Below are positions 2,107 to 43,317 of a stretch of DNA of 64,000 nt, piece after piece (positions within the stretch are counted from its first letter, which is position 1; the number at the start of each line of letters is the position of its first letter). The notes under the pieces are model-generated. The model worked only from the letters and a program-made list of their open reading frames with translations, did no database searches and was not told the DNA's origin. The DNA is taken from positions 1 to 64,000 of the forward strand of contig NZ_SELD02000044.1 in NCBI RefSeq assembly GCF_004923205.2, read 5' to 3'. The position numbers and the translations under genes were made by a program. This stretch comes from Paracoccus aeridis. GTDB lineage: Bacteria > Pseudomonadota > Alphaproteobacteria > Rhodobacterales > Rhodobacteraceae.

Positions 2107-2159
2107 AAAATGGTGCTGTGAGAGAGGATTGAACTCTCGACCTCACCCTTACCAAGGGT
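2107..2159. repeat. att copy (prophage B attL; shared junction with element A)
   Basis: 53 bp identical to 43239-43291. It corresponds to the 3' part of tRNA-Thr(GGT), from the anticodon stem/loop through CCA plus four T (read on the minus strand). Identity stops at 2106 and 2160. The 5' half of the tRNA is missing, so this is not a functional gene. With the right copy it delimits the prophage. Because a second integrase gene ends its upstream region only 88 bp away on the other side, it probably also serves as the right att of element A. Confidence 0.93.
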
Positions 2160-2171
2160 TTCGTCACTTCG

Positions 2172-3266
2172 CTAATCACCTATTGCTTTCAATTGTTTAA
2201 CTGGTTTCCCGTCTGCCGCTTGTACGCGGGTTGTACGGATCATGGCCCGAACTTCGCTGTCCGGGGTCTCGTTGTGTGCGTAGATGCGGTCGGGCAGTGC
2301 AGGGTCGGACCAGCGCCCGGCCTTCGCGGCCGTGACGGGATCGATGCCCTGCCGCACGCGCAGCTCGGTGTAGAAGCCGTGACGGCCGGCGCTGTGCGGC
2401 GGCAGGTACGGGATGCCCGCCTTCTTGCACGCCGCCTTCCAAGCCTTCAGTGGGCCGTTGTGGCCGGCGTAGCCGAACACCCGCGGCGGGTGCACGGTGC
2501 CACGTCGGCGGTCGACCGGCTTGCGAGGCGGCAGGTTCGCCAGCTTCGCGACCATCTCCATGCTGATGCTGATCCACTGGGCGGGGTGCCCCTTGCTCGC
2601 CGGCAGCTTTACCCGGGCCCGCTGCAGGTCCAGGTCGCAGGGCCGCAGCCGCACTGCCTGACCCACGCGGGCGCCGGTCTCGAACATGAATTCGACCAGC
2701 GCAGCCAGATACGGGGAGGCGCAGGCGCTGAAGGCGTCGATCCATTCCCACGATCCGGGCGTCTTCGGGACCCGGCTCTGCTTGCCGCGCGCGGCGTCCT
2801 GCTGGACGCGCTCGGCCGTCGAGAAGCCGCGGATCCGGATCGGAGGGCATCTGCCGAGGTCATGGGCGTTGTTGATCACGGCCTTGACGGGCGTCAGCAC
2901 CTGGCGCTGCCAGGTGTCGGTGCTGGCTTCCGGGTAGAGCCGGCGGGCGAGGTCTCGGATCGATTGCGGCGTGATCGCCGCGCAGGCGGTCTGGCCGATT
3001 TCGGGGACGATCAGCAGCAGGTATCGCGCGTCGGCCGGCTTAGCGTTGTAGAGAACGACCGCATCGGCGAAGGTCAGTGCCGCCTCGTCTCCAACGAGAT
3101 GACGCCGGATCTGCCGTTCTTCTTCGGCGCTGCACCAGCTCCATGCGCCCGCTTCCGTAGGTGATCCAGTGCTGCGGCGGTAGTAGCCGGTGACGGGTTG
3201 TCCCTTGTATTCGACGCGGCCACGGACCCACCAGGTCGATCCGCGCTGATAGGGTTCGAGCGGCAT
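2172..3266 (-). CDS. int: Tyrosine integrase of prophage B
   Basis: 364 aa, starting MPLEPYQRGSTWWVRG; a longer in-frame start (3416) exists but the sequence before MPLEP lacks domain character and overlaps the excisionase. Catalytic-domain signatures: Arg in FETGARVGQA, the PHSAGRHGF box, and the terminal Tyr in RIYAHNE. The stop lies 12 bp from the attL core, the normal place for int. Its first 190 nt overlap the 3' end of the upstream excisionase-like gene in another frame, a layout I know from related Rhodobacteraceae prophages. Confidence 0.93.
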   Translation of the reverse strand: MPLEPYQRGSTWWVRGRVEYKGQPVTGYYRRSTGSPTEAGAWSWCSAEEERQIRRHLVGDEAALTFADAVVLYNAKPADARYLLLIVPEIGQTACAAITPQSIRDLARRLYPEASTDTWQRQVLTPVKAVINNAHDLGRCPPIRIRGFSTAERVQQDAARGKQSRVPKTPGSWEWIDAFSACASPYLAALVEFMFETGARVGQAVRLRPCDLDLQRARVKLPASKGHPAQWISISMEMVAKLANLPPRKPVDRRRGTVHPPRVFGYAGHNGPLKAWKAACKKAGIPYLPPHSAGRHGFYTELRVRQGIDPVTAAKAGRWSDPALPDRIYAHNETPDSEVRAMIRTTRVQAADGKPVKQLKAIGD

Positions 3267-3454
3267 GAGGCTTTTTCCGTCAGGATTAGTTCGAACTGGT
3301 CCGGCGTGATGATCATGGCGCGGCCCAGCTTGTGGCAAGCCCCGAGGCGGTTGGCCCTTTCGCGGATCGTCCGGGCGCTGACTTCCATGCCGCGCGCTGC
3401 GAGCTCTGCTGCCCATTCCTCGGGGGTCCTCGAGGTCGTCAGGATGCTGGTCAC
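3074..3454 (-). CDS. Excisionase-like DNA-binding protein
   Basis: 126 aa with a GTG start, GAGGAGG 5-6 nt upstream. The N-terminal 60 residues (TPEEWAAELAARG...ISARTIRERANRLG-type) form a compact winged-helix/MerR-like pattern ending in MIITPDQFE, typical of small recombination directionality factors. The C-terminal 65 residues are low-complexity and overlap the int start by 190 nt. The position directly upstream of int and a GTGA overlap with a 32-aa gene support an Xis role. That role is inferred from context. Confidence 0.7.
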   Translation of the reverse strand: MTSILTTSRTPEEWAAELAARGMEVSARTIRERANRLGACHKLGRAMIITPDQFELILTEKASCRSNPISADRPGGSVAASNTRDNPSPATTAAALDHLRKRAHGAGAAPKKNGRSGVISLETRRH

Positions 3455-9787: not shown

Positions 9788-10440
9788 GCGCGCTGCGCGT
9801 CCTGATCGGCTGCGAAAGCTCGGGCGTGATGCATTGCGCCTTCGCCGCGCGGGGCCATGACGCATGGTCGTGCGACCTGTTGCCGTCCGAGGACGGCAGC
9901 AACCATCACATCCGCGGCGACGTGCGCGATCACCTGGGCGACGGATGGGACCTGCTGCTGGTCGCTCATCCCCCATGCACGCGGCTCTGCAACAGCGGAG
10001 TGCGATGGCTGCATGAACCGCCCGCAGGCCGCACTCATGCCGAAATGTGGGCCGAGCTGGACGAGGGCGTCGAACTGTTCGCCGCCTGCTGGCGCGCGCC
10101 GGTCGATCGTGTCGCCGTCGAAAACCCGGTCATGCACCGGCACGCGCGCGAGCGGATGCCCGCTGACCTGCCGAAACCGCAGATCGTGCAGCCGTGGTGG
10201 TTCGGCGAGCCCTTCTTCAAGGCGACCGGCTTCTACCTGCGCGGGCTGCCGCCGCTGGCGCCGACCTGCAGGCTGACGCCACCGAAGGCCGGCACCGACG
10301 ATCACAAGGCATGGTCCGCCGTGCACCGCGCCCCGCCGGGGCCGGATCGATGGCGCTTCCGGTCCCGCACGTTCGAGGGCGTCGCGGACGCCTGTGCCGA
10401 GCAGTGGGGCGGCCATGCCGCCTGCGAGGTGGCCGCGTGA
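9784..10440 (+). CDS. DNA cytosine methyltransferase-like phage protein
   Basis: 218 aa. The start VLIGCESSGVMHCAFAARGHDAWSCDL looks like the SAM-binding motif of C5-methyltransferases (G-x-x-x-G then an acidic residue after strand 2). A later HPPCTRLCNSG resembles the PPC catalytic loop, then VAVENPVMHRH (ENV-like). The rest of the classical domain, including a target-recognition region, is short. Homologues in phages are often annotated as cytosine methyltransferases. Activity is likely but unproven. ATG overlaps the previous stop. Confidence 0.7.
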   Translation: MSALRVLIGCESSGVMHCAFAARGHDAWSCDLLPSEDGSNHHIRGDVRDHLGDGWDLLLVAHPPCTRLCNSGVRWLHEPPAGRTHAEMWAELDEGVELFAACWRAPVDRVAVENPVMHRHARERMPADLPKPQIVQPWWFGEPFFKATGFYLRGLPPLAPTCRLTPPKAGTDDHKAWSAVHRAPPGPDRWRFRSRTFEGVADACAEQWGGHAACEVAA

Positions 10441-12293
10441 CCGAGCACTCCAACATCGACGCCGTCCGCGCCATCATGGCGCAGGAAGAAGCGGTGGACC
10501 TGCCGGACGGGCTGGTGCCGCCAGGCGCCGAGCCTCCGGACGGCGACTGGTCCGGCCCGCCCGACGACGGCGCGCCCCCCGCGCCCCCCGGATCGGGCGA
10601 TGACCCGGTCGACCCGTCATCCCTCTGCGCCGCGCTGCCGCTGAACGACTTCGGCAACGGCCAGCGCTTCGCCGTCCATTTCGGCGAGGACGCCATGTGG
10701 GTGCCGCGGGTGGGCTGGTTCACCTGGGACGGCCGCCGCTGGTCCAAGGACGCCGACGAGATCGAGGTCCGCAAGCTCGCGCAGAAGCTCGGTTCGCTGA
10801 TCGAGCGCGAGATCCCGCACATCGTGCTGGACGACTGGCAGATGCAGATCCTCGGCCGCAAGCGCGAGCTGCAGGACGCCTTTTCCGCGGCCGAGACGCG
10901 CGCCAAGGGCGACGGGCCCGAGGCTGACGCCGCGCGGGCCGAGATGGACGAGCTGCGCCCCAAGCTGGGGCAGCTGGCCGGGATCGAGAAGTTCCTGGCG
11001 GCCAAGCGCAAGGATCACCGCGGCTTCGCCCGCACCTCGGGCAACACCGGCCGGATCGACGCGACGCTGCGCGAGGGCGGGGTGGGGCTGGCCGTGGGCT
11101 TCGATGCGCTGGACGCCGATCCGCTCGCGGTCGCCTGCGAGAACGGGGTCCTGCGCTTCACCCGCGCGCCCGACATGGGGCTGCCCGGCGAGCGCCCGTC
11201 GCACTACGTCAACGTCGAACCGCACGCGCGACCCGACCTGATTACGAAACTGATGCCGGTCGCCTACGATCCGGACGCGCGGGCGCCACGGTTCGAGGCG
11301 TTCCTGCGCCGGGTCCAGCCCGACCTCGAGATGCGGGAGTTCCTGCAGCGGTGGTTCGGGCTGTCGATGACGGCGCTGACGGGCGAGCAGAAGCTCGTGT
11401 TCCTGCACGGCATGGGCGCGAACGGCAAGTCGGTCCTGGTCGAGACGATGGCCCGGATGCTGGGCGACTATGCCAGCACCGCCAAGATCGAATCCCTGAC
11501 CGGCCGCAACCGGCGCGGCGGCGGCGACGCCACCCCCGACCTCGTGCCGCTGATGGGCGCGCGCATGGTCCGCGCGTCCGAGCCCGAGGAAGGCGAGCGG
11601 CTGCAGGAAGGCATCATCAAGGAGCTGACCGGCGGCGAGCCGATCCTGATCCGGGCGCTCCACAGCGACTTCATCGAGACCCGCCCGGTGTTCAAGCTGA
11701 CCATCAGCGGGAACCACAAGCCCGACATCCGCGGGCAGGACGACGGCATCTGGCGGCGCGTGCTGCTGGTGCCCTTCGACGTCCAGATCCCGAAGGAAGA
11801 GCGCGACCCGCAGCTGGTCGAGAAGATGCTCGAGGAGCGGTCGGGTATCCTGAACTGGATGGTGCAGGGTCTGGTCGCCTATCTCGACGGCGGCCTGCGC
11901 GAGCCTGCGGCCGTGATGGACGCGACGAGCGAGTATCGCGAGGAAAGCGACCCGCTGGGGCACTTCCTGACCGACGCCTGCGTGGTGACCGGCGACGCGG
12001 CCGACGGCGAGCTCGCCCGCGACCTGGTCATGGCCTTCAACTTCTGGATGGACGAGCGCGGCGCGGGCCAGTGGAAGGACCGCACCATCAGCCTGCAGCT
12101 GAAGGACAAGATGCGGCGCTGGGTCAGCCCGGCGACCGGGCAGAAGTACACCGAGCGCAAGTCGAACGGCGTCATGCGCTACGACGGCATCCGCTTCAAC
12201 GACGTCTTCGGCCCGCGCTTCCGCGACGCCCCGCGCGACCACCAAGGACGTCCCCTCGCCGGCGGCCGGAGGACGTCCGATGCCGACCGATGA
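10437..12293 (+). CDS. D5/P4-type primase-helicase (SF3 helicase)
   Basis: 618 aa from GTG overlapping the previous stop. The acidic/Pro-rich first 65 residues are followed by a D5-N region (about 70-290). The SF3 helicase domain has Walker A GMGANGKS at 325-332, the B region near VPLMGARMVRASEPEEGERL, and sensor KLTISGNHKPDI. The C-terminal winged-helix region (about 520-600) ends basic. It should unwind the phage origin together with the separate primase. Confidence 0.92.
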   Translation: MTEHSNIDAVRAIMAQEEAVDLPDGLVPPGAEPPDGDWSGPPDDGAPPAPPGSGDDPVDPSSLCAALPLNDFGNGQRFAVHFGEDAMWVPRVGWFTWDGRRWSKDADEIEVRKLAQKLGSLIEREIPHIVLDDWQMQILGRKRELQDAFSAAETRAKGDGPEADAARAEMDELRPKLGQLAGIEKFLAAKRKDHRGFARTSGNTGRIDATLREGGVGLAVGFDALDADPLAVACENGVLRFTRAPDMGLPGERPSHYVNVEPHARPDLITKLMPVAYDPDARAPRFEAFLRRVQPDLEMREFLQRWFGLSMTALTGEQKLVFLHGMGANGKSVLVETMARMLGDYASTAKIESLTGRNRRGGGDATPDLVPLMGARMVRASEPEEGERLQEGIIKELTGGEPILIRALHSDFIETRPVFKLTISGNHKPDIRGQDDGIWRRVLLVPFDVQIPKEERDPQLVEKMLEERSGILNWMVQGLVAYLDGGLREPAAVMDATSEYREESDPLGHFLTDACVVTGDAADGELARDLVMAFNFWMDERGAGQWKDRTISLQLKDKMRRWVSPATGQKYTERKSNGVMRYDGIRFNDVFGPRFRDAPRDHQGRPLAGGRRTSDADR

Positions 12294-29062: not shown

Positions 29063-30934
29063 ATGGCAAAAGCCCCGAATGAGGTGCTGCGTGACTTCAC
29101 GGTGTTCAACGCCGCCAACCCGTTGCCCATGGGCGATCCGACGAGCGGGGTGCACAACCCCACCAAGAAGGATCTTCGGGACCTTCTGAACGACCTGACC
29201 CCGCCGTCCGCCGGCAACCCGAACTACCAGGGGGTGCTGACCTACGGCGCCGAGCCGACGGGCAACGGCAGCAGCTACACGCTGACCGGGCTGCAGCAGG
29301 TTCCGGTGATCGGGCAGACCTTCTTCTTCACGCCGAACGCGGACAGCACCGTGCCCGCGCCTGCGCTGTCGCTGACCGACCAGCAGGGGCTGGTGCGGAC
29401 GGCCACCATCGTCGATGCCGACGGGCGCGGGCTGGCGGCGCCGCTGCGCCGCGGGACGTCCTATCTGCTGCGCTACGGCGAGGGCGTTGCGCAGGTCGTG
29501 TCGCGTGACGTGCGCGAGTCCAGGCTTCTCGCGAGCAGCTTCCCGGTCACCGACGCGGCCATTCCGGCCCATGTCGACCCGCTGCCGATCCGCAGCATCT
29601 ACGGGTCGCGCCAGCCGCTCATCGTATCGGGCCCGACGCCCTGCCAGGTGCAGCCGGTGTTCGACCAGTGCACCATCCAGATGACGGGCGCGGCCGGAAC
29701 GCTGGACTGCGCAGAGATGATCCCCGGAACGGAGGTGCTGCTGTCCCTGCGGTCAGGCGACAAGGTCGTGGCCCGCGAGAACTACGTCGGCACGTCGGGC
29801 AACGTCGCGACCGCCGCGGGCGTGAGCGTCGTGCGGGTGATGAAGCTGGCAGGCGCCACCGTCATCAGCACCGTCGCCGGGCCTGCCCCTGCCTATTCGA
29901 CCGGCCGGGCCACGCATGACATGACGATCGTCTGGGGTGGGCAGTCCAACGCCCAGCAGGCCCACATGTACGGCGGCCTCGGCGGCTTCACGTGGGCGCT
30001 GCGGAACTGGATCGCCACGCCGCTGAACAGGTCGGTGCGGTCCGTGCAGGGCGCCACCGGCGGCACCGCGATCGACAGCCGGTCCGTCGACGCCGGGCAG
30101 ACCAGCTACTGGTGGAACGCGGCCAACAACACGCCGGGCCCGGCGCTGACGACCTACATGAACGCGGTGGCGGCGGCCGTGTCCGACGGCGCGCCGGCGC
30201 CCGAGTGGTGCTTCTGGGTGCAGGGCGAATCCGACGTGGGTGCCATGTACCTCGATCGCCTGACGGTGGCGCAGCTGCGCGACACGATTGTGCGGGTATG
30301 GGGCCATATCCGCGCGACATATCCGAACATGAAGTTCCTCGTCGGCATGATCGGCGGGTTCGAGCAGCGGCTGGTCGACCTCGGCGCATCGCGCGTGCGG
30401 AACGCATACCTCGCGGCGATCGCGTCGGTCAGCTACGCGACGCTCGGGGCCGAGCTGTATGACATGCCGCGGCTGCACAACAACCTGCACTACTACGACA
30501 CCGCCTACGCGATCCTTGGCGCGCGGCTTGCGCGGTCCTGGGCGAACATCGCACACGGGCAGGCCAATCGGACCGGGCCCAAGGTCATCGCGGCGGGCAC
30601 CCAGAACAACGGCCGGACGCTGATTCTGTCATTCTCGGGCATGTCCGCGAGCTTCGTGCCCCGTACGCCGCTTGCGGCGGGCCCCGCACCCTACGGCATC
30701 TACGTGATCGAGGGCGACGACGGTGCGATGGTGCCGATGGCCTACGGCGAGTTCCAGAGCAACGGACAGCTGGCCTTGTTCGCGCCGCGCAGCGTGCGGG
30801 GCATGAAGGTCGGCGGGCCGTGGGGCTGGGCCCAGCACGCGCGGCAGGGGCAGGTCATCACCGACGACGATCGGGACCTGTATCACCGCGTGCCGGGCCT
30901 GCCGCTGTCCAGCTTCCTGATCGACATTCCCTGA
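29063..30934 (+). CDS. Tail spike with sialate O-acetylesterase-like (SGNH) domain
   Basis: 623 aa. Residues 1-180 form an N-terminal tail-attachment part. From about 285 an SGNH/SASA esterase domain shows GQSN (Ser295), GATGGTA, WVQGESD (387-391) and DMPRLHNNLHY (Asp467, His476), so the catalytic Ser-Asp-His are present. A C-terminal beta domain of about 100 residues follows. It probably removes O-acetyl groups from a surface polysaccharide at adsorption. The substrate is unknown. Confidence 0.85.
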   Translation: MAKAPNEVLRDFTVFNAANPLPMGDPTSGVHNPTKKDLRDLLNDLTPPSAGNPNYQGVLTYGAEPTGNGSSYTLTGLQQVPVIGQTFFFTPNADSTVPAPALSLTDQQGLVRTATIVDADGRGLAAPLRRGTSYLLRYGEGVAQVVSRDVRESRLLASSFPVTDAAIPAHVDPLPIRSIYGSRQPLIVSGPTPCQVQPVFDQCTIQMTGAAGTLDCAEMIPGTEVLLSLRSGDKVVARENYVGTSGNVATAAGVSVVRVMKLAGATVISTVAGPAPAYSTGRATHDMTIVWGGQSNAQQAHMYGGLGGFTWALRNWIATPLNRSVRSVQGATGGTAIDSRSVDAGQTSYWWNAANNTPGPALTTYMNAVAAAVSDGAPAPEWCFWVQGESDVGAMYLDRLTVAQLRDTIVRVWGHIRATYPNMKFLVGMIGGFEQRLVDLGASRVRNAYLAAIASVSYATLGAELYDMPRLHNNLHYYDTAYAILGARLARSWANIAHGQANRTGPKVIAAGTQNNGRTLILSFSGMSASFVPRTPLAAGPAPYGIYVIEGDDGAMVPMAYGEFQSNGQLALFAPRSVRGMKVGGPWGWAQHARQGQVITDDDRDLYHRVPGLPLSSFLIDIP

Positions 30935-30945
30935 CGGAGCCCGGC

Positions 30946-31245
30946 ATGGCCACCGAGACCCACACCCGCGGCGACACGCGGCCGATCGTCGTCAACCTGC
31001 TGCAGGAGGATGGCACGCCCTATGACCTGTCGGGCTGCACCGTGGCGCTGCACGTCAACACCGCCGCCGCCTGCCTGACAGTTTTTGGCACCGTTCCCGA
31101 CGTCCTGCTGGGGGCGGTGCTGTTCGACGTGAATGCGCTGGACCTGCCGCCCCGCGCCCGCCGCGCCACCGTCGAGGTCACGTGGTCTGACGGCACGCAG
31201 GAGAACGCGGGCGAATTCGTCCTCAATACCGTGGAGCGCTGCTGA
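30946..31245 (+). CDS. BppU-like small baseplate/fibre adaptor
   Basis: 99 aa. The RGDTRPIVVNLLQEDGTPYDLSGCTVALHV opening is the N-terminal Ig-like fold of upper-baseplate/fibre-adaptor proteins. ACGGAGC precedes the ATG. It lies between two spike genes, and its stop overlaps the next start. It probably anchors the long spike. Confidence 0.75.
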   Translation: MATETHTRGDTRPIVVNLLQEDGTPYDLSGCTVALHVNTAAACLTVFGTVPDVLLGAVLFDVNALDLPPRARRATVEVTWSDGTQENAGEFVLNTVERC

Positions 31246-34200
31246 TGCCGATCGAGCTTGTCTTTGCCCGCCAGGAGCGTCCGGTCGGCCGTTCGACCCT
31301 GGACCAGGTGCGCGAGCTGCGCGACCAGGCCCAGGAGATCGCGCGCACGGCTGCGTCCGACGCCGTGGCCGAGGCGATGCCGCGCATCGAAACCACGATC
31401 ACCAACGCGGCAGGGCAGGCGGCTGCCACTGCCGCGGAGCAAACGGCCCCGGCCGCGGCCGCGGCGGCAATCGCCGAGGCGCAACCTCGTATCGATGCCG
31501 CAGCAGCTCAGGCAGCTCAGGCGGCGGCTGGTCCGGCTGCCAGTGGCGCGGTCGCGGCAGTGCAGGCGCAACTCGACACTCGCGTGACAGCGGCACAAAC
31601 CGCGGCGGGAGATGCGTCCACCTCGCGCACCGGGGCCGAGACTGCACGGGCTGGCGCGGAGTCCGCCTCTGCCGATTTCGCCAATACAGCGGCTCGCCAG
31701 CCGTGGTCCTTCCACTCGGGTCTGCGCAACTGGACGACCACGCGAACCGGCTTGCCTACGGGAACAGTGTCGCTGGCTGGCTTGACGCAAGTTACGGACG
31801 ACCCGGTTTTCGGAACCTCTGCTGATTGGCGTCCGACGGCGGTGGGCAACAACGTTCTGACACGCGGCGTGTCGCCGTGGGGCCGCGCGGCGTACCGCGT
31901 AACCGCCAAGCTCCGTGTAATCTCCGGTCCTCTCCCAAATGTTCCTCTGAGCCTGGTCGCTATCGGTCTGAGCGGGAACATGGCCAATTCGACCTACTAC
32001 GGTGGGGCGGATCAGAGCGTTGCAGCGGACGGCAACGAAGTGACGCTGAGCGCGACATTCGCCCCTACGGCCGATTTCGGTGCAGATTATACCGCTGCGG
32101 GATTGGCGGGGGTTCCCTATGCGCGCTTCGGAGTTCGATATGGCGCCTCTGGGGCGGCGCAGATCCGCATTGGCTCGATCTTGATCGAGGAAGCAACGCT
32201 GGAATTGTCGCTGGGGAAAGCGTCTGCGGAAAGCGTTGCTTTTGTCTCACGAGATGCGGCGGCAGCGGCGCGTATCCCGGCTCCAGCTGGTCGCATTTCC
32301 GTGTTCCATGACGGCGAATTGCTGCAGTATAAGCGGCTTTCGTCCGGGGCGAGTACCGCGAACGTACCGCTGACCACGCAAGGGAACGTGCGTTGGGTTC
32401 CTGAGGGTATTCCGTCGCTGCGCCACTGGGGCGCGGTTTCTGGCGTCACTATGAACGCGGACGGGATCAGGTTTACCGGCACGGACTGCCGTGCCCTGCT
32501 GACGGCGATGCTGGCGTGGGCGGGCGCGAATGGCGCAACAAAGGCGCGGATCAACGCGGGGTCGTTCTATGTGGAAAAGCCACCTGGCACGACCATCGCT
32601 GTTCCGATCGCCAGCAACGGGACACTGGAGATCGTCGGCGAGGGCATGTTCGTCTCGACGCTGTATTACGCGGATTCCGCCATCGCCGCCGGGACCCCGA
32701 AACCGATGTTTTCACAGCAGGTCGGTTCATCGCTGGATTGCCTGCGCCTAGCCGACTTCGGGATCGTGTCGGATTGGGGTGCCAACGGGTTCTGGGGCGA
32801 CAGTTCGCACGCGGCTGCATTCGGTGTCGGCAACCGAAAGGTCATGGTGGAGCGCGTCAGGTTCAGCAACATCTGCCAGATGTGCCTCGTTCTCTCAGGC
32901 GTGCAGGACGTCACTGTGACTGAATGTTACTTTGATCGTTCTCAACGCGACGGCGCCCACCTCGTGAATGCCTCTCGTCTCAAGGTTACGAACAACTATT
33001 TCCGTCAGATCGGAGACGACTCCATCGTCTTTTCCCGAACGGCGGACAATGTTCTGCCCAGCCAAGCCATCATCACCGGAAACGTGATCGAGGACAGCCA
33101 AGGCATTTACGGCACCGGCTACGACAGCCTGATCGTATCCCACAACATCGTCCGAAGGCCGCACATCCGCGGCATCGAAATCCTGCGATCGGCATCCTGG
33201 GGCGACAACCGGGGAAGAATCCCGCGCATCAACTACGTCATCACCGACAACATCGTGACCGACGTGTTCAGGCGCATCCGGTTTGGCGGCGCGGGTAACG
33301 AGTGCGCTTATATCGCCGTAGGTGACAGCTCCGATCCCACCTACAGCGGCGGGCTCACTCTGGGAAAGATGGGCTCTCTGCCAGATGGCAGCTACGTCTG
33401 GAACAGCAACGGAACCGGCGTCAACGCGCCCGCCCCCTACTTCCACAAGGAAGGCAACTTGGTCGGCAACCTGAACATCGTCATCGCCAACAATATCTGC
33501 ATGAGGACGCTCGAACCGACCGCCAACTACACCGACTACGGCTACGGCCCACGCTATGTGCAGAACGTCGGCCCCTACACCGGAGACGTGCTGGAGGAGG
33601 ATTTCTACGGCACGCACATCGCGGTGCGGGGGACCATGCGAAGCGTCCGGGTGTCCGGGAACTTGAGCTACGGCGCGACGACTCCGTTCGAGGTCTGGGG
33701 CTTCATGGAGGGGGCGGTCACGGACTGGGACGGCCTGACCTACGAGAGCAATCGTGCCATGCACGTCCGGGGCGACCGGGCGTTCGATGTGCGCGGACAA
33801 GGCGTCGTGACCTTCCGCAACAACGACATCGACGGCGATCCCTTCCATCTCCACCCCGCCCGCGGGCCCAACGGCCGCTGGGGTTCGGCGACCGACAAGG
33901 TGGCCTACCGGGTCGACAACGGCGCCCAGGTCATCCTGGACGGCGGCTCCTACAAGAACCTGTCGTCGATCGCGCGGGTCGTCAGTGGGGGCGTTTCCCA
34001 TACGCCCGCCGCCGTCACCCTGCACGGCAGTTTTGCAGGGATCGGCGACAACGCGGCAAACGGTGGCGTCCGCGTGGTGCCCGGCAACGTCCCGGTCATC
34101 TATGTGCGGGTGAACACCGATAAGACGAGCCCCGACTTCAACAAGGTCACGGGGATCACGTCTGGCACGGCCGCAGCCATGCCCGCGTCCGGCCACTATC

Positions 34201-34337
34201 TCGCGGGCCAAACGGTGATGGCGCCGGTTCCGGTCATCCGGTCGGGCTATGCCGTGACCGGCTGGCTGCGCCTGACGACCGGCAATGGACACGTGGCCGG
34301 GACGGACTGGTCGGAGATGAGGACGACCCTCGCGTAA
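31245..34337 (+). CDS. Long beta-helical tail spike
   Basis: 1030 aa. Residues 1-145 are an Ala-rich coiled coil (AAAAQAAQAAA) for trimerisation and tail attachment. A beta-sandwich-like part spans 150-330. From about 380 to 880 many short parallel-helix turns appear (VTVTECYFDRS, KVTNNYFRQIGDDSIVFS, ITGNVIEDS, SHNIVRRP, with repeated N-N/N-I spacing), typical of right-handed beta-helix polysaccharide-binding spikes. Base composition falls in 31.7-33.3 kb compared with the flanks, a sign of module exchange. Catalysis is not evident. Confidence 0.88.
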   Translation: MPIELVFARQERPVGRSTLDQVRELRDQAQEIARTAASDAVAEAMPRIETTITNAAGQAAATAAEQTAPAAAAAAIAEAQPRIDAAAAQAAQAAAGPAASGAVAAVQAQLDTRVTAAQTAAGDASTSRTGAETARAGAESASADFANTAARQPWSFHSGLRNWTTTRTGLPTGTVSLAGLTQVTDDPVFGTSADWRPTAVGNNVLTRGVSPWGRAAYRVTAKLRVISGPLPNVPLSLVAIGLSGNMANSTYYGGADQSVAADGNEVTLSATFAPTADFGADYTAAGLAGVPYARFGVRYGASGAAQIRIGSILIEEATLELSLGKASAESVAFVSRDAAAAARIPAPAGRISVFHDGELLQYKRLSSGASTANVPLTTQGNVRWVPEGIPSLRHWGAVSGVTMNADGIRFTGTDCRALLTAMLAWAGANGATKARINAGSFYVEKPPGTTIAVPIASNGTLEIVGEGMFVSTLYYADSAIAAGTPKPMFSQQVGSSLDCLRLADFGIVSDWGANGFWGDSSHAAAFGVGNRKVMVERVRFSNICQMCLVLSGVQDVTVTECYFDRSQRDGAHLVNASRLKVTNNYFRQIGDDSIVFSRTADNVLPSQAIITGNVIEDSQGIYGTGYDSLIVSHNIVRRPHIRGIEILRSASWGDNRGRIPRINYVITDNIVTDVFRRIRFGGAGNECAYIAVGDSSDPTYSGGLTLGKMGSLPDGSYVWNSNGTGVNAPAPYFHKEGNLVGNLNIVIANNICMRTLEPTANYTDYGYGPRYVQNVGPYTGDVLEEDFYGTHIAVRGTMRSVRVSGNLSYGATTPFEVWGFMEGAVTDWDGLTYESNRAMHVRGDRAFDVRGQGVVTFRNNDIDGDPFHLHPARGPNGRWGSATDKVAYRVDNGAQVILDGGSYKNLSSIARVVSGGVSHTPAAVTLHGSFAGIGDNAANGGVRVVPGNVPVIYVRVNTDKTSPDFNKVTGITSGTAAAMPASGHYLAGQTVMAPVPVIRSGYAVTGWLRLTTGNGHVAGTDWSEMRTTLA

Positions 34338-34380: not shown

Positions 34381-34647
34381 ATGGCGCTGAATCCCCTTCA
34401 CACCTACGGCAAGTCCGCGCTCGGCCCGGCGATGGGATCGTTTCCGATCACGCCTGCCGATGGCGCCGATCTGGCGACCGACATCCGTGCGATCACGCTG
34501 AACGCGGGTGGCACGTTGTCGTGGGTCTCGTCCGAAAACAACGCGGTGCAGACGACGGCTGCCCTGCCGCCGGGGACATATCCGCTTCTTGCCCGCCGGA
34601 TCCGGGCGACCGGGACGACGGCGACCGGCCTGACCGGGTGGGTGTGA
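34381..34647 (+). CDS. Small tail-associated hypothetical protein (88 aa)
   Basis: 88 aa with SD GGAGG 9 nt before ATG. It begins MALNPLHTYGKSALGPAMGSFPITPADGADLATDIRAI and ends with a short beta rich part (ATGTTATGLTGWV), a pattern I know from conserved small phage proteins between spike and lysis genes. The next gene starts on its stop. Confidence 0.75.
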   Translation: MALNPLHTYGKSALGPAMGSFPITPADGADLATDIRAITLNAGGTLSWVSSENNAVQTTAALPPGTYPLLARRIRATGTTATGLTGWV

Positions 34648-35366
34648 TGCAGTTCGGGTTCGGCCTTGGCCTGACGCATCTGCGCCCGGCCAGCGCGAAC
34701 GCCGATCCGATCACCTCGCGGTACGGCACGGGCATGGAGCAGATCCCGCTGCACCATGACCCCGAAGATGCGGTGCTTGACGGCAACGGCAACGTCACGA
34801 GCATCGCTAACCGCGGCGGCGCAGGGCCGCTGTTCAACGCGACGGCCAGTGCGACAGGGATCACGCGCACGGGCAACCTGCTGAACGTGACCAGCCAGGA
34901 CCTCAGGCTGGTACTTGCGAACCCCGCCGACATGGTGGGAACGCGCCTGTTCATCGTCGCTGCATTCGACCCCGCTTCTGTTCCCGACCCCCGACTGTTC
35001 GGCAGCGCGTCCCCCGTCAACTTCGGCCGCATCCACCAGACGCAGGGCAACCTGCTTCTGTCCCGGGCGGGCGCGCAGGCGTTCCTCGTCAGCCCAACCA
35101 ACCTCGGCAACGCCCTGCACCTGTTCGAGATCGAGTTGGCAGGCGGGAAGGCGAGCTACTGGGTGGACGGCGTGTTGCGGGAAAGCGCCGCCAATGCTTG
35201 GACCGACTTCACCATCAACCTGCTCTATGGGGCGACGACTGGCTTCGGCTTCATCGGCCGATCGGGCGTAGTCCTGTCCGTCATCACGGACGGCGCGCCG
35301 GAACGCGAACCGACCATGCTGGCCGTCCGGCGCTCCCTCGTCGCCAAGCACGGCATCGCCCCGTGA
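34647..35366 (+). CDS. Hypothetical virion protein, beta-sandwich-like (239 aa)
   Basis: 239 aa. Starts MQFGFGLGLTHLRPASANA. Middle and C-terminal segments (LFIVAAFDPASVPDPRLF, FEIELAGGKASYWVDGVLRES, INLLYGATTGFGFIGRSGVVLSVI) look like LamG/concanavalin-type beta strands, so a carbohydrate-binding role in the tail is plausible. Not recognised further. Coupled on both sides. Confidence 0.7.
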   Translation: MQFGFGLGLTHLRPASANADPITSRYGTGMEQIPLHHDPEDAVLDGNGNVTSIANRGGAGPLFNATASATGITRTGNLLNVTSQDLRLVLANPADMVGTRLFIVAAFDPASVPDPRLFGSASPVNFGRIHQTQGNLLLSRAGAQAFLVSPTNLGNALHLFEIELAGGKASYWVDGVLRESAANAWTDFTINLLYGATTGFGFIGRSGVVLSVITDGAPEREPTMLAVRRSLVAKHGIAP

Positions 35367-35698
35367 ACGCGCTTCGGCGGCTGCTGGCGATCGTCGCCGC
35401 TCCTACAGACGGCGACAGCTACCAATGGGCCGTCATCGGGCTGGGCCACGTGATGCTCGGCGCGGCCTTGCAGGGGCTGCTGGGCGTGACCGCGGCTGCG
35501 GCCCGGCTGGGGCTGGCGGCGCTCTACTGGGCGGCGAAGGAGCACGGCGACATGCGGCGCGGCGGCGCGCTGCGAGACGGCCTCGTGGACACGGCGCTGG
35601 TCGGCGTGGGGTGCTTCTATACGGGCGACCGCTGGTGGCCGGTGGCGGTGATGCTGACGGCCGCTGTTGGAGCGTGGATCAAGGAGACGCGGGCATGA
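35363..35698 (+). CDS. Small membrane protein, holin-like
   Basis: 111 aa from GTG overlapping the previous stop. Two or three hydrophobic segments (WAVIGLGHVMLGAALQGLLGVTAAAA, ALYWAA, LVGVGCFYTGDRWWPVAVMLTAAVGAW) and a basic end. It lies among lysis-type genes and its stop overlaps the ATG at 35695 (ATGA). That junction is where the cargo below is inserted. Holin function inferred. Confidence 0.65.
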   Translation: MNALRRLLAIVAAPTDGDSYQWAVIGLGHVMLGAALQGLLGVTAAAARLGLAALYWAAKEHGDMRRGGALRDGLVDTALVGVGCFYTGDRWWPVAVMLTAAVGAWIKETRA

Positions 35699-35702
35699 TC
35701 GT
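35678..35702 (+). repeat. Left 25-bp direct repeat flanking cargo insertion
   Basis: Identical to 38201-38225. It spans the SD-like AAGGAG, the stop of the upstream gene and the start ATG of the downstream gene (ATGATCGT). In the left copy the start is followed by cargo; in the right copy by the real gene at 38218. Identity ends at 35677 and 35703. Confidence 0.9.
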
Positions 35703-35800
35703 CATGCAAGGACGGCATTATGCTGAAGCTGGTCTTGACTCCGGTCCGAACCCTTGGTTGGGAGATCATAAGAGTTCAACCAGCAGGGTAGAAAACAGCC

Positions 35801-37051
35801 GTGGACAGCCAGCTCAAGACGAAAGAGAGCCCCCCTGCCATCCGCGCCAGAGCAGTCTCAGGCCAGCCGACCATACCGTTCCGGTACTACAACGTCATCC
35901 GCAACTGTGGTGATGCAATCACCAGCTATATCTTGCAAGAGAGTTTCGGGGTGCAGGGGCGGGTCAGTGAAGCTGGTGAAGAGCACCTTCTGGCCATTGG
36001 AAGTATTTTCTTCATGGCCAATAGGAAGTCCAACATCTGGGGCTCGGGCGTGCTGGACCCGAAGGCAGGTATCCCGGGAATTGATTCTTCAAAAGTACAC
36101 GCTCTTAGAGGGCGGAAAACCGTAGAGTACCTGTCCGGCCTAGGATACAAGCTTCCTGATCTGCCGCTCGGTGATCCCGGCATTTTCGTCGATGAACTCG
36201 TTGACGTTCCCGCGACATCGAAATATCGCGCCGCTATCGTGCCGCATCATACGGGATTTCATAGCGATAAATGGGACCGCGCTCGGCACAGCGCAGAGTT
36301 CTGTGTAGTAGATATGATGGATGACAGCCTGGAACCTCTGCGGAGGATATCTGAAGCTCAGGTTGTGCTTTCGCAAAGCCTGCACGGTCTGATATTCGCC
36401 GCTGCGCTAGGAAAGCCGTACCTCTGGATATCTGGACACAGTTCCGAAGTGTGGAATTGGAAGTTTCTTGACTGGTTCAGTACTTGTGAGAATGGGCAGC
36501 TTGCGCCGGTCCTCCTCAACGTTTCGCTTGACGATATGCTCGCGCTCGCGGAGCCGAGGAGATGCACAGCAAGCAAAGCCGATCTGAGGTCAGCCTTTCC
36601 GATGCAGCTCGTTGATCACGATACGAAGGTTCGTGGGGACTTTCGGACTTCTAGAATGCTTTCGCCTGCTCACGTGTTTTTTGAGTCTAGTGGAAGTGCA
36701 GAGACCGAGGATGGCACCCACACATGGCACGAATTTACGGCGAAAGTGGCAAAGCTCCGTTCAAGGGTTTTCGTGAACTCACCCGAACCAACATATCTCG
36801 CGATCACTCTGGCCTCGGCGGCTCATCAACCTAGCCGCGCAGATTTAGTGGAGGGGCAGCGGTACCTCGACGTTAACCGAGAAGCGCAGTTGCTCTGGTA
36901 CCCTGGTAACGTTGATTTCTCAAAAGCGACGAAGTTTTTGCTGTCTGACGTGAGAATCGGGGAAACTGACTTGCGGAACGGTACCATTCTAGTCCGACCC
37001 GATGGTCACATCGGTAAAGATGGCAGATTTGCCGTTGCGACCCTCCAGTGA
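35801..37051 (+). CDS. Polysaccharide pyruvyl transferase family protein (cargo)
   Basis: 416 aa from GTG. Family signatures: NVIRNCGDAITSYIL near residue 31-45, AIGSIFFMANRKSNIWGSGVLDP near 65-87, PLGDPGIFVDE, and the C-terminal SEAQVVLSQSLHGLIFAAALGKPYLW, as in ExoV-like pyruvyltransferases (PF04230). A C-terminal extension of about 130 residues (from MLSPAHVFFES) is not part of the known domain. Codon use is clearly less GC-rich than the flanks. It probably adds pyruvate ketals to a surface polysaccharide, changing receptor structure in the lysogen. Confidence 0.82.
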   Translation: MDSQLKTKESPPAIRARAVSGQPTIPFRYYNVIRNCGDAITSYILQESFGVQGRVSEAGEEHLLAIGSIFFMANRKSNIWGSGVLDPKAGIPGIDSSKVHALRGRKTVEYLSGLGYKLPDLPLGDPGIFVDELVDVPATSKYRAAIVPHHTGFHSDKWDRARHSAEFCVVDMMDDSLEPLRRISEAQVVLSQSLHGLIFAAALGKPYLWISGHSSEVWNWKFLDWFSTCENGQLAPVLLNVSLDDMLALAEPRRCTASKADLRSAFPMQLVDHDTKVRGDFRTSRMLSPAHVFFESSGSAETEDGTHTWHEFTAKVAKLRSRVFVNSPEPTYLAITLASAAHQPSRADLVEGQRYLDVNREAQLLWYPGNVDFSKATKFLLSDVRIGETDLRNGTILVRPDGHIGKDGRFAVATLQ

Positions 37052-37081
37052 GCGACTGTCGCGCTGCGAAGCGACCTTTAG

Positions 37082-38005
37082 TTAAGTAGGAGCGCTATCG
37101 ATCGCTTGGCGAAGCCGGGACTCAAATGCAAGAACGTCTTGGTCCGAAGCTTCAGACTGCAAGTCTTGAAGAAACCCATTGTGGAAAACTTCCGCGAGCC
37201 GTTCTTTTGAGGCTTTGTTGTAAGTGTAAGTGTTCAGCCAAGTGTTCGCCTTCGAGACGAACCTTTGTCCTGCGTGAACTGGGTGATAGAAGAGCCCCGT
37301 TGGCTCCTGCTCGGAAATTCGCCGTTCTGATTTCGGCAGGCCGACATTGAAGGAGGCGTTTGTTCTATACTTTACCGGTCCGGCGTCCAAGCTGTTGCAG
37401 TTGAAGCCGTTAGCCATCAGAATTGACGTCAAGAAAGATTCATCGTTGGGCCATCTACGAGTCTGGCCAATTGGGACAACGTCATCGAAAGACTGTGAGA
37501 TTTGCCTGCGGGCTTGAAAGGCGAACTTAGCAGCTCGCCTACTTATGCCTACAACTGGGAAAAGACACGCATACACTTCTGGCTCAAAATAACACATCGG
37601 GGCATGCCAATACCAATTACTTTGCGCTCTGAATGTGTGAAATGCCAGGAAGTCGTGATGTTCGTCGGAGAAGTTGTCAAAGAACTCTGCGCTGGAGGGA
37701 AGGCTGAGCCTGACATCAGACTCGATCATCCAATACCTGTCGTAAGCGTTTAGAAGTTGTGCAGCGGCGTAAAGAAAATAATCGCCGCAAAGCCAGCCGA
37801 AGTTAGGAGGGGCGTACAATCCCATATCTTTGGCGGATTGTTCGGAAATCGAGAGCTTTACTTTCCCGGTTCCAACATCAACTGCTCCGTTTGTTTCATC
37901 ACAAATGAAAGCTACGTCGCGGTTAGATGTATTCTTGAGGTAATGATACAAACGTTCGGTTGCCTCGCAGTAGTAGTGAGTCCGAATTATGATCAACTCT
38001 CTCAT
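37082..38005 (-). CDS. Glycosyltransferase-like protein (cargo)
   Basis: 307 aa from MRELIIIRTHYYCEA, AGAAGG 6 nt upstream; a longer frame to 38098 lacks SD. An N-terminal Rossmann-like strand (ELIIIRTHYYC), AFICDETNG, then YWMIESDVRLSLP where E-S-D-V could be the metal-binding D-x-D equivalent. Later RRWPNDESFLTSILMANGFNC has the acidic/aromatic pattern of processive glycosyltransferases. Converges with the pyruvyltransferase gene. Assignment rests on motif resemblance only. Confidence 0.6.
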   Translation of the reverse strand: MRELIIIRTHYYCEATERLYHYLKNTSNRDVAFICDETNGAVDVGTGKVKLSISEQSAKDMGLYAPPNFGWLCGDYFLYAAAQLLNAYDRYWMIESDVRLSLPSSAEFFDNFSDEHHDFLAFHTFRAQSNWYWHAPMCYFEPEVYACLFPVVGISRRAAKFAFQARRQISQSFDDVVPIGQTRRWPNDESFLTSILMANGFNCNSLDAGPVKYRTNASFNVGLPKSERRISEQEPTGLFYHPVHAGQRFVSKANTWLNTYTYNKASKERLAEVFHNGFLQDLQSEASDQDVLAFESRLRQAIDSAPT

Positions 38006-38200
38006 GATAGCCTTCTTCTTCTGCGGTTCTTCAAAGGCACACTGCCTTGCCTCGGCAAAGGTAAGTCTCTGCGTCTCTATGCATGACCTCCGGTGCATTC
38101 GTCCACCAGATAACCCTTAGCTACGCGTCTTATACGAGCCGGCGGCGTTCACGATCGCCCCGGTCGCCAACGGCCACAGTCCGACGCGGGATCACCACAA
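38006..38200. other. Cargo right flank without gene
   Basis: About 195 bp between the glycosyltransferase-like start and the right direct repeat. It should hold that gene's promoter on the minus strand. No ORF with a ribosome site, no inverted repeat of transposon-end type and no transposase remains. Confidence 0.4.
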
Positions 38201-38225
38201 ATCAAGGAGACGCGGGCATGATCGT
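38201..38225 (+). repeat. Right 25-bp direct repeat flanking cargo insertion
   Basis: Exact copy of 35678-35702. Here the ATG at 38218 opens the native late gene. Removing one repeat and the cargo would restore an ATGA-coupled gene pair, so the repeat marks the insertion boundaries. Confidence 0.9.
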
Positions 38226-38673
38226 GATCCGGCGCATCACCGACGGCATCTATGCCCACCTGCCGATCCGGGTCACCGAATGGGGCATGGCGTGGCCCGC
38301 GTTCACGATGGGGCTGGCGCTGAACTACCAGAGCGACATGTTCCAGACCTCGCCATCGTTCGAGCGCTTGGCGGCGATCGCGAGCGAGGGGACATGGGCG
38401 ATCCTCGTCCTGGCCTGCTGCCTGCTGCGGATCGTGGCGCTGACCGTGAACGGCACCTTCACGGGCTTCGGCTATTCCCCGCACATGCGCCTCGCTGCAT
38501 CGCTGGTCGGGCTGTTCTTCTGGTCGCGCTACTGCCTCGGCTTCCTCGACGCGGCCATTGCCAGCGGCGGGTCGTGGTCCGCCCCTGCGATCTATTCGAC
38601 CGCCGTGCTGTTCGAGATGATCAACGCCTATCGGTCGTGGCTCGACGTCTTGCGCAGCAGGCAGGGGAAGTGA
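38218..38673 (+). CDS. Four-helix membrane protein in lysis region
   Basis: 151 aa. Hydrophobic segments at about 24-40, 60-82, 92-112 and 120-135 (for example GTWAILVLACCLLRIVALTV and LAASLVGLFFWSRYCLGFL). A phage membrane protein, possibly part of the holin set. Its original partner upstream is the gene ending at 35698, now separated by the cargo. Confidence 0.7.
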   Translation: MIVIRRITDGIYAHLPIRVTEWGMAWPAFTMGLALNYQSDMFQTSPSFERLAAIASEGTWAILVLACCLLRIVALTVNGTFTGFGYSPHMRLAASLVGLFFWSRYCLGFLDAAIASGGSWSAPAIYSTAVLFEMINAYRSWLDVLRSRQGK

Positions 38674-38676
38674 CGG

Positions 38677-39042
38677 ATGAACTGGGAAAATTTCGATCCG
38701 ACGAAGTGGGCCGACGCCATCCTTCTCCTGATCGTCGGCATCCTGAGCGCATTCGGGATCGGGCAGGTGCGCACGCGGAAGACGCCCGCCCGTCCCGACG
38801 ACGTGATGGAGGTCGCCGGAGCCATCGTCAGCGACCGCGCCGTGGAGCGCATGGTGACGGCGCTGGACGGCTTCACCGCCTCGGCGAAGCTGCTGACCCT
38901 CGCCATCGACAAGGACGTTGACGCCAAGGCGAAGCTGACCGGCGCCCTTACCGGGGTCTGCGAGGAGGTCAAGGAGATGAGCGACCAGCTCGACCGCGTG
39001 CGCGACGAGATGATCCGGTCCCAGTCCCGCCGGGGCTACTGA
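38677..39042 (+). CDS. Single-pass membrane protein with C-terminal coiled coil
   Basis: 121 aa. One transmembrane helix at about residues 13-30 (WADAILLLIVGILSAFGIG), then a long helical part (VMEVAGAIVSDRAVERMVTALDGF...VCEEVKEMSDQLDRVRDEM). It resembles i-spanin-like or holin-accessory proteins. Followed by a terminator. Confidence 0.65.
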   Translation: MNWENFDPTKWADAILLLIVGILSAFGIGQVRTRKTPARPDDVMEVAGAIVSDRAVERMVTALDGFTASAKLLTLAIDKDVDAKAKLTGALTGVCEEVKEMSDQLDRVRDEMIRSQSRRGY

Positions 39043-39108: not shown

Positions 39109-39729
39109 ATGAAGGAAAACTTTGCGGCCTGTCTGGCTGAAACGCTCCGCCACGAAGGTGGATGGAGCGACCACCCGAAGGATCCCGGCGGCGCGACGAT
39201 GAAGGGCGTCACGCTGGACACCTATCGCCGATGGCGCCCGGGCGCGACCAAGGCACAGCTGCGCGCGATCACGGATGCCGAAGTAGCAGCGATATACCGC
39301 AAGGGCTACTGGGACGCCGTAAACGCCGACGACCTGCCCGCAGGGCTGGACCTTGTGGCGTTCGACGGTGCGATCAATAGCGGCCCGTCTCGTGGCGCGA
39401 AGTGGCTGCAAGCCGGCGTTGGTGCGAAGCAGGACGGCAAGGTCGGTCCTGCCACCATCGCTGCCGCCCGCGCCTACGACACCCGCACCGCCGTCAACCG
39501 CGCCTGCGATGCCCGTCTGGCGTTCCTTCGCACGCTGGGAACGTGGCCGACCTTCGGCAAGGGCTGGTCCCGCCGCGTGGCGTCCGTGCGATCTACGGCG
39601 CTTGCCATGGCCGCTCCGGCGCGTCCCGCGCCCAAGCCCGCCGTCTATCCCCCCGCCAATACCCCCGCTGCGCCCCAGACAGGCTTCTGTGCGTGGCTCA
39701 AGCGACATTTTGGAGGCAACCATGCTTGA
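39109..39729 (+). CDS. Endolysin, GH108 N-acetylmuramidase
   Basis: 206 aa. Glu16 in HEGGWSDHPKDPGGATMKGVT is the catalytic residue and following box of glycosyl hydrolase family 108. The peptidoglycan-binding part (DGAINSGPSRGAKWLQAGVGAKQDGKVGPATIAAA) lies at about 85-130. A proline-rich linker and basic tail (WLKRHFGG) end the protein. No signal peptide, so it needs a holin. Cleaves peptidoglycan at lysis. Confidence 0.92.
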   Translation: MKENFAACLAETLRHEGGWSDHPKDPGGATMKGVTLDTYRRWRPGATKAQLRAITDAEVAAIYRKGYWDAVNADDLPAGLDLVAFDGAINSGPSRGAKWLQAGVGAKQDGKVGPATIAAARAYDTRTAVNRACDARLAFLRTLGTWPTFGKGWSRRVASVRSTALAMAAPARPAPKPAVYPPANTPAAPQTGFCAWLKRHFGGNHA

Positions 39730-41999: not shown

Positions 42000-42337
42000 C
42001 GGCAGCCGCCATAGGCGCCGCGGCTATACCTTGGCCAGTCGGCAGCATGCCCGCTTCGCACCATCTCGCACGCGACGTCTGCGCCGTCCGGCAAGGCACA
42101 GCGCACGACCGGGCGGCTGTAGCGGTCGACGTCCATGAGATCGCACGTGAGCATCTGCCCGTTCACCAGCCGGGCCAGCGCGTCTTGTGCCGCCGCGCCG
42201 CCCTGTTCCCGCAGCTCGGGTGCGCTGATCCCCCAGAGACGCAGGCGCAGGTCTTTGCCGGGCGCGTCTAGGCGCAGGGTGTCGCCGTCGATCGCGACCG
42301 CGCCCGTGAGGCAGATTGCAGCGAGGCAGGTGATCAT
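41996..42337 (-). CDS. Secreted thermonuclease-like (SNase fold) protein
   Basis: 113 aa. A short hydrophobic N-terminus (MITCLAAICLTGAVA) may export it. The SNase core IDGDTLRL...LRLWGISAPELREQGGAAAQDALARLV, then MDVDRYSRPVVRCALPDGADVACEMVRSGHAAD matches the OB-fold nuclease with Arg/Asp active residues (DGDT, Arg near RLWG, DRYSR). C-terminus is Cys-ended. A minus-strand accessory gene; it may degrade external or competitor DNA. Confidence 0.82.
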   Translation of the reverse strand: MITCLAAICLTGAVAIDGDTLRLDAPGKDLRLRLWGISAPELREQGGAAAQDALARLVNGQMLTCDLMDVDRYSRPVVRCALPDGADVACEMVRSGHAADWPRYSRGAYGGCR

Positions 42338-42741
42338 CGGTTGTCATCCGGCTGGGCCTGCTCGGTGAGGAGGGTATGGGTCTGTCGATACCCCGCCGCG
42401 AAGAGAGCATCGGCAACAACTCTGGCCTCGAAAAACGACAAGGACATGGCGCTCATGATCGCCTCAATCATCGCCGCGCGCTCGTCTTCCGCTGGTGCCG
42501 GGGAGGGCTGCGGTGCAGCGGCAATGACGGCACGGGTATTCCAATTGACCGCCGCTTCCTCGTAGGTGCCGGCGCTAGGAGCAGATGCTTCACAGTTGGC
42601 GCAGGCGACTGCAAAGCGATGCTTTGTGCGCTTGCCCATGATTTCTGCCGTCTCACCGTCATCATAGGCCGCGCCGCCGCAGAAGGGACAGGGCAGTAGG
42701 TTGTGCGCCTTGCGGAATGGCTCGGGGGTGGGGCGGGTCAC
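42334..42741 (-). CDS. Lar-like restriction-alleviation zinc protein
   Basis: 135 aa from GTG with GGAGAG 6 nt upstream. The zinc ribbon LLPCPFCGGAAYDD...VACANCEASAPSAGTYEEAAVNWNTR is the hallmark of Lar/restriction alleviation-like proteins of prophages. The C-terminal half is a helical extension (DERAAMIEAIMSAMSLSFFEARVVADALF). It ends on the nuclease start (ATGA). Anti-restriction role is by family name only. Confidence 0.72.
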   Translation of the reverse strand: MTRPTPEPFRKAHNLLPCPFCGGAAYDDGETAEIMGKRTKHRFAVACANCEASAPSAGTYEEAAVNWNTRAVIAAAPQPSPAPAEDERAAMIEAIMSAMSLSFFEARVVADALFAAGYRQTHTLLTEQAQPDDNR

Positions 42742-42859
42742 GTCGTCTCTCCTTGCTTCGGGGCAGCGCCCGGTGGGGGTGGGGGAAGCGGCATCACCAG
42801 AAATCCTCGCTGAAAGCATCGCGCGGATGCAGATCCTCTCGGACGATAGGCTGCCCCGA

Positions 42860-43238: not shown

Positions 43239-43291
43239 AAAATGGTGCTGTGAGAGAGGATTGAACTCTCGACCTCACCCTTACCAAGGGT
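43239..43291. repeat. att copy (prophage B attR, within tRNA-Thr)
   Basis: Identical 53 bp to 2107-2159. It covers the tRNA 3' part from the anticodon stem through CCA and four downstream T. Integration here keeps the tRNA intact because the element supplies the same 3' end. Prophage length between copies is about 41.1 kb. Confidence 0.93.
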
Positions 43292-43317
43292 GTGCTCTAC
43301 CACTGAGCTACCACAGC
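43243..43317 (-). tRNA. tRNA-Thr(GGT)
   Basis: 75 nt including encoded CCA. Acceptor GCTGTGG pairs with TCACAGC (one G-T); D arm GCTC/GAGC; anticodon stem CACCC/GGGTG with loop TTGGTAA, anticodon GGT; T arm GAGAG/CTCTC with loop TTCAATC; discriminator A. It is the integration target of the prophage on its left. Confidence 0.97.

Follow-up and report, generated by a model that had tools for sequence, protein, structure and literature searches.

O-antigen modification by phages P22 and D3 and by Shigella phages blocks phage adsorption (PMC11436027), and prophage-borne wzy and acetyltransferase genes change the capsule of Acinetobacter baumannii (PMC13228068, PMC9676051), with the transfer of such capsule-modifying genes between prophages having been suggested (PMC13228068). 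For Paracoccus, the one auxiliary gene which a phage survey reports in its active phages is terB; the terms moron, pyruvyl, glycosyltransferase and polysaccharide were not found in the available text of this survey (PMC6536676). The present analysis concerns the first 64 kb (64,000 nt, hereafter the window) of contig NZ_SELD02000044.1, which belongs to a 3.32-Mb genome of Paracoccus aeridis. Within a prophage in this window, a segment carrying a polysaccharide pyruvyltransferase-like gene (PST) and a gene for a predicted GT-A-fold protein (GT) was found between two copies of the junction of two phage late genes, here called C and D. This cargo is quite probably a moron, host-type DNA in a phage which can do without it, captured from a Paracoccus-type polysaccharide locus and inserted with duplication of the C/D junction, and it probably alters the surface glycan of the host.

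A duplicated translation start around two AT-rich genes

The junction is present as two exact 25-bp direct repeats on the plus strand, at 35678..35702 and 38201..38225, which are spaced 2,523 nt apart and reach 28 nt if one mismatch is allowed (to 35705 and 38228, respectively). Among repeats of at least 16 nt this is the second longest exact direct repeat in the window, behind the attachment site (att) of the prophage, and a search with the 25-mer at up to three mismatches gave two matches in the window compared with 0.00 expected from 100 shuffles. Each copy contains the last codons of C, an AAGGAG Shine-Dalgarno (SD) sequence, the stop of C and the start of D overlapped as ATGA, and the first codons of D. 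The left copy forms the 3′ end and stop of gene C (35363..35698, plus strand; 111 aa), the upstream partner of the coupled pair, and the right copy supplies the SD sequence and start of gene D (38218..38673, plus strand; 151 aa), with the result that both genes are intact. A sequence-only reading of the window had described a 2.5-kb AT-richer segment between two exact 25-bp direct repeats, each with the SD, stop and ATG of a coupled late gene pair. Coordinates, G+C content and the shuffle test confirm this description, as does the presence of AAGGAG and ATGA in both copies. The start codon in the left copy also opens a 72-codon frame (35695-35913) which runs into the start of PST in a different frame and may be translated by coupling to C.

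The G+C content of the cargo genes is 0.543 for PST and 0.490 for GT, with third-position values (GC3) of 0.587 and 0.537, respectively. This is lower than in all 16 other window genes compared (13 phage and three chromosomal; GC 0.644-0.730, GC3 0.757-0.963), and the codon use of PST and GT was the most atypical of the 18 genes. A base composition which differs from that of the surrounding phage genes is one of the features by which morons are recognized. The AT-rich cargo is separated from the right repeat copy by a GC-rich sequence of approximately 80 nt (38118-38200). A source for it was sought in the 124 other Paracoccus genomes, three of which gave short matches of 25-29 nt; these lie in three reading frames unrelated to one another and were taken as chance.

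PST (35801..37051, plus strand) encodes 416 aa with 67% aa identity to a protein of P. endophyticus. It matches the polysaccharide pyruvyltransferase family PF04230 (E 1.4e-8) at 35.5 bits, where the family cut-off is 25.3, over the C-terminal half of the model. Enzymes of this kind transfer pyruvate from PEP to a sugar; residue H195, within the motif SQSLHG, is invariant in three aligned homologues and may be a candidate counterpart of H308 of CsaB (PMC10435577). A search by sequence for solved relatives of PST returned no match. PST converges with GT, and between the two lies a weak terminator-like hairpin (37058..37075, plus strand), which is a consensus match only.

GT is encoded on the minus strand at 37082..38005 (307 aa from the conserved start), its start probably being 38005, where its homologues start, rather than 38098. 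It exceeds no curated cut-off in Pfam or NCBIfam and is without a PHROGs match, and a profile search for solved relatives gave one weak match (1s4n, a mannosyltransferase, E 0.15). An AlphaFold2 model built from five aligned sequences has a pTM of 0.70 and a mean pLDDT of 72.7. The first 13 Foldseek matches to this model, all at E ≤0.001, are glycosyltransferases, and a second structural comparison gave a best VIA Z of 11.3 (rmsd 3.7, 188 aligned). An ExD motif following YDRYW is conserved in the homologues and may have the metal-binding role of a DxD-type motif. On the basis of the predicted fold and this ExD motif, GT is likely a GT-A glycosyltransferase. The earlier label of glycosyltransferase-like gains a predicted GT-A-like fold, although it is backed by no curated family match and the gene starts at 38005 and not at 38098.

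The junction in related phages

Gene D was found in six of 125 genomes of the genus and in one of 295 genomes of the wider family, the latter being the source genome itself. For comparison, 16 other stretches with a D homologue (4.7-18 kb; D identity 23-51%) were used. L060-L064 are from Paracoccus genomes and L150-L154 from IMG/VR, and the other six come from annotated phage records, of which twelve had matched. Neither PST nor GT is encoded in any of these 16 at E 0.01. In L061 a C-like gene and D are overlapped as ATGA, just as in the window; the C-like gene of L062 ends 4-28 nt 5′ of D and has a homologue of gene B ahead of it. No cargo is present in either. As the sequence likeness to C is weak, the identity of C in these two stretches rests also on position and size. 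The cargo thereby sits between phage genes which are adjacent in relatives, both of them distant, and this is a further feature of morons. In L063 and L064 another phage gene lies directly 5′ of D, in the six annotated phage records the end of a phage gene is ~120 nt or less from D, or the two genes share 1-4 nt, and L150 has an ORF of 82 codons with a 4-nt overlap with D. No recognizable cargo was found directly 5′ of D in L151-L153, stretches which are annotated in part.

Other cargo does occur at this boundary between tail and lysis genes. In L060, reading towards D, a remnant of the C-terminus of a spike comes first, which aligns with the L061 spike at 58% over 43 aa (E 1.8e-7). Next are two antisense PEP-CTERM-type genes (10391-11609; GC 0.55-0.56 compared with 0.64 for D) and then D. 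The PEP-CTERM-type sorting signals are weak, one being just at the Pfam cut-off. In L154 an antisense glycosyltransferase gene of family PF13704 (2363-3379) lies between a tail gene, whose end it overlaps by 4 nt, and an amidase endolysin gene; its GC of 0.61 compares with 0.68 and 0.65 for its neighbors, and two genes separate it from D. Counting the window, surface or glycan genes are thus found at the tail/lysis boundary in three of 17 loci, and in two of the 17 they are immediately 5′ of D. The boundary accepts other cargo in some related phages; that it is a cargo hot spot is a lead, the counts being from this one boundary. The longest word common to the cargo boundaries was 7 nt in L154, where the null maximum was 13, and 12 nt in L060 (null maximum 11), where it lay off the exact ends. 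Flanking repeats as a general rule for such boundaries were ruled out by these word lengths.

According to the sequence-only reading, the junction in related prophages should be either empty, with a single 25-bp sequence, or occupied by other cargo. Empty junctions (two) and other cargo at or near the junction (two) were both found, in distant relatives. The same reading had named two outcomes as counting against it, namely cargo similar to its flanks in composition and codon use, and relatives which all carry these two genes without the repeat. Neither was observed, the cargo being unlike its flanks and the relatives being without the two genes.

The prophage itself is estimated to span ~2107 to 43291 (41 kb), as it is bounded by a 53-bp att pair in tRNA-Thr(GGT) with an integrase gene beside the left copy. 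The left copy (attL, 2107..2159) is an exact copy of the 3′ end of tRNA-Thr and the right copy (attR, 43239..43291) overlaps the intact tRNA-Thr(GGT) gene (43243-43317, minus strand); at 53 bp, this is the longest exact direct repeat in the window. The tyrosine integrase gene lies at 2172..3416 on the minus strand (phrog_1 E 7e-21; PF00589 E 8e-11). Terminase, portal, head protease, head-tail adaptor, tape measure and tail fiber genes were recognized, and past the tail fiber the order is beta-helix spike, B, C, cargo segment, D, E and GH108 endolysin. On the plus strand of this region are found a late protein weakly similar to SASA carbohydrate esterases (29063..30934; PF03629 E 0.011, under the curated cut-off), the probable beta-helix tail spike (31245..34337; PF13229 E 9.5e-11, phrog_2234 tail spike E 8e-5), gene B (34647..35366), a late protein gene with a homologue before the C-like gene in L062, and then C, to which weakly similar genes lie directly before D in L061 and L062. 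Gene D, in the lysis region, has a homologue in Agrobacterium phage JP1 annotated as a membrane protein, and no Pfam, PHROGs or NCBIfam family matched it; in alphaproteobacterial and cyanobacterial phages its homologues adjoin lysis genes. Gene E (38677..39042, plus strand) has homologues 3′ of D in L060, L061, L151, L152 and, weakly, L154, and is followed by the endolysin gene (39109..39729, plus strand; PF05838 E 4e-28, phrog_315 E 2e-51). Close to the right end of the prophage a gene for a Lar-like restriction alleviation protein was also detected (42337-42819; PF14354 E 3e-8).

Source of the gene pair and its predicted function

Of the 125 Paracoccus genomes scanned, 11 matched the GT query and 41 the PST query, and both genes at more than 50% identity were found, besides the window, only in P. 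endophyticus (G273) and in genome G318. P. endophyticus SYSUP0003 (L094/L123) possesses the same tail-to-tail pair, which is likewise AT-rich, with 73.8 and 67.3% aa identity and 68.7% DNA identity to the cargo over 2,174 columns. The pair there differs from the cargo in having chromosomal glycan neighbors, as it lies in an AT-rich island adjoining two glycosyltransferase genes and a sulfotransferase gene, and in that repeats of at least 20 nt do not flank it. At the G318 locus (L095, 7671-11165; GC 0.45-0.58) the GT relative is accompanied by two PF04230 genes, with a gene for a Stf0 sulfotransferase close by, and this is a larger form of the PST/GT module; flanking repeats of at least 20 nt were absent around the pair here as well. 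A relative at 44% occurs on plasmids of P. yeei. A tree of six rows, intended to place the nearest relative of GT, had no branch at starred support and speaks neither for nor against the host's own paralogue as the source.

Scans of IMG/VR with PST and GT profiles returned solely a record identical to this prophage, and in 50,697 annotated phage records GT had no match and PST had distant matches only, in 19 records. Such PST-like proteins are encoded by Prevotella Lak phages, Tunturiibacter phage Tunturi_5 and Cobetia phage Carin-5; these share 24-32% identity over 43-57% of the protein, come mostly from very large phage genomes and are not accompanied by a GT match.

On the basis of their families and of the P. 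endophyticus neighborhood, it is plausible that PST and GT belong to surface-polysaccharide metabolism. In the lysogen both enzymes would probably alter the surface polysaccharide and hinder the adsorption of glycan-binding phages, as their families and the known converting phages suggest. The convergent module would have been captured from a Paracoccus-type surface-polysaccharide locus, this direction of transfer being presumed, and would have entered the tRNA-Thr prophage between its late genes C and D, at the boundary of its tail and lysis modules. On insertion, 25 bp or more of the C/D junction would have been duplicated, with the result that the end of C and the SD sequence and start of D were kept and the lysis operon survived. 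This duplication most likely arose through a staggered break or template switch, an origin preferred because it requires the fewest assumptions.

Competing explanations and known systems

The sequence-only reading had explained the locus by homologous exchange at a conserved junction. This is not supported, as gene order is partly common to the relatives and the DNA is not. The 22-nt core of the repeat has no match at up to two mismatches in the 124 other Paracoccus genomes, the only IMG/VR record with the 19-nt core is the one identical to this prophage, and L060 and L154 are without a flanking repeat. At three mismatches the 22-nt core was found in 12 of the 124 genomes compared with one for the reversed control, and none of these 12 is among the genomes with a D match. 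As the core is not reused, and as L060, L154, L094 and L095 are without such repeats, the repeat is apparently the scar of a single event. The main rival, and the one closest to the sequence-only reading, is mosaic recombination near the start of D between two related phages differing upstream of D. The left copy would then be the old C/D junction with a stub of one D allele, and the right copy the D of the other phage, with the cargo already ahead of it. We consider this unlikely, yet credible enough to deserve close attention. D does resemble a module edge, its upstream neighbor varies among relatives, and the ~80 nt GC-rich stretch before the right copy gave only chance matches in the 124 other Paracoccus genomes. 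In addition, gapped similarity to the 5′ end of D may continue past the left copy (p 0.0155, 0.008, 0.009, and 0.061 for 40, 60, 80, and 110 nt, respectively), with a 14-column local match to D (p 0.0065). However, the upstream side, used as a control on which homology is not expected, gave p values of 0.0035, 0.113, 0.02, and 0.158, so that the stub signal is weak, and a second phage with the same 25 bp was not found in the 124 other Paracoccus genomes or in IMG/VR. A D stub past the left copy (p ~0.01) would, besides, fit duplication or phage recombination alike. A decayed remnant of D at this position was set aside as weak, the upstream side yielding similar p values, and no remnant of C was found before the right copy. 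An unrecognized mobile element, or site-specific recombination acting in trans, with the repeat as a long target-site duplication or att core, could account for direct repeats which flank the segment exactly and for the occurrence of the pair elsewhere as a unit. We regard it as very improbable, since no transposase or recombinase was recognized in the segment (ORFs of at least 60 aa), none of the five inverted pairs listed joins the segment ends, the pair in L094 and L095 is without flanking repeats of at least 20 nt, and the repeat is not reused elsewhere. The sequence-only reading, too, had seen no transposase or terminal inverted repeat, and a transposon or integron-like origin was rejected on the same grounds. 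Most transposases make duplications shorter than 25-28 bp. That the repeat was created by misjoined contigs is barely credible: there is a single assembly, and the identical IMG/VR record (over 12,873 nt) may be from the same genome, but 25 bp is short for a misjoin and the usual phage gene order is found on both sides.

Several results weigh against capture of a host-type glycan module with duplication of the junction. The match of PST to PF04230 covers only positions 121-279 of the 280 in the model, the C-terminal half. The Foldseek TM-scores of the 13 glycosyltransferases matched by GT are low (0.29-0.39), and the nucleotidyltransferases MobA and GlmU share its fold with Z values of 10.5 and 9.8, within ~1 of the best. 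The C-like genes resemble C only weakly (pairwise E 9e-4 for L061 and 1e-4 for L062), C had no match at E 0.01 in the comparison of the 16 stretches, and a close phage relative with an empty site was absent from the data searched, in which D of the relatives is only 23-51% identical. Of the two loci with other cargo, neither was found to have boundary repeats, and the L060 contig carries a Rep3 gene and ends 360 nt past the cargo; L060 may be a phage remnant on a plasmid. Finally, no sigma-70-like promoter was found in the segment compared with 1.4 in shuffles (one is not excluded in this group), and the host genome already holds a lone GT relative (64%). The last two results also favor the view that the cargo is passenger DNA, with intact genes which are silent in the lysogen, of no use, and lost in time through recombination between the repeats, as does the antisense orientation of one cargo gene to the late operon. 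Of the promoter and terminator which a moron would be expected to bring for its expression in the lysogen, weak terminator-like hairpins were the only candidates found in the segment. Both frames are, however, open, with 67-74% identity to the P. endophyticus proteins, and glycan or surface cargo recurs near the boundary in two of the 16 other loci; a passenger role is thus judged rather improbable.

Capture with duplication of the junction remains the preferred explanation, and the duplicated junction would have served as a second ribosome-binding site and start, allowing undamaged uptake of cargo into a packed, translation-coupled lysis region. A much bolder extension, to which we give little credence, is that the boundary upstream of D is a standing port for surface-remodeling cargo in temperate phages of Alphaproteobacteria and that the cassette is reversible through its 25-bp copies. 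If this were true, recombination between the copies would remove the cassette and restore the C-D overlap, and lysogens could switch their surface glycan on and off. Should the boundary be a cargo port, scanning it in alphaproteobacterial prophages would offer an easy route to unknown surface-modifying and phage-exclusion genes.

If confirmed, prophage-borne pyruvylation would be a further chemistry next to the acetyl, glucosyl and polymerase changes of the papers cited, as far as their available text extends. The A. baumannii prophages have in common with this one, here by prediction, genes acting on a chromosomally made polysaccharide, and the cargo differs from theirs in its enzymes (pyruvyltransferase-like and GT-A-fold) and in its host. 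The gtrABC operons of P22-like and Shigella phages (PMC11436027) share, by analogy, the phage-borne modification of a glycan, whereas the cargo here consists of two convergent genes, neither of which is recognized as the flippase GtrA or as GtrB. A gtrABC serotype-conversion operon was for this reason rejected as a description of the locus, as there are only two cargo genes and neither matches the GtrA or GtrB families. With the phage morons (PMC6469090) the cargo shares its nature as horizontally acquired, host-type DNA of odd base composition between the genes of a prophage. It is unlike them in the duplicated coupled translation start which flanks it, a feature not mentioned in the available part of that account, and in that no sigma-70-like promoter was found here. 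A moron with probable surface-glycan conversion is of a known kind, and it is the non-damaging duplication of a coupled start that is the unusual part.

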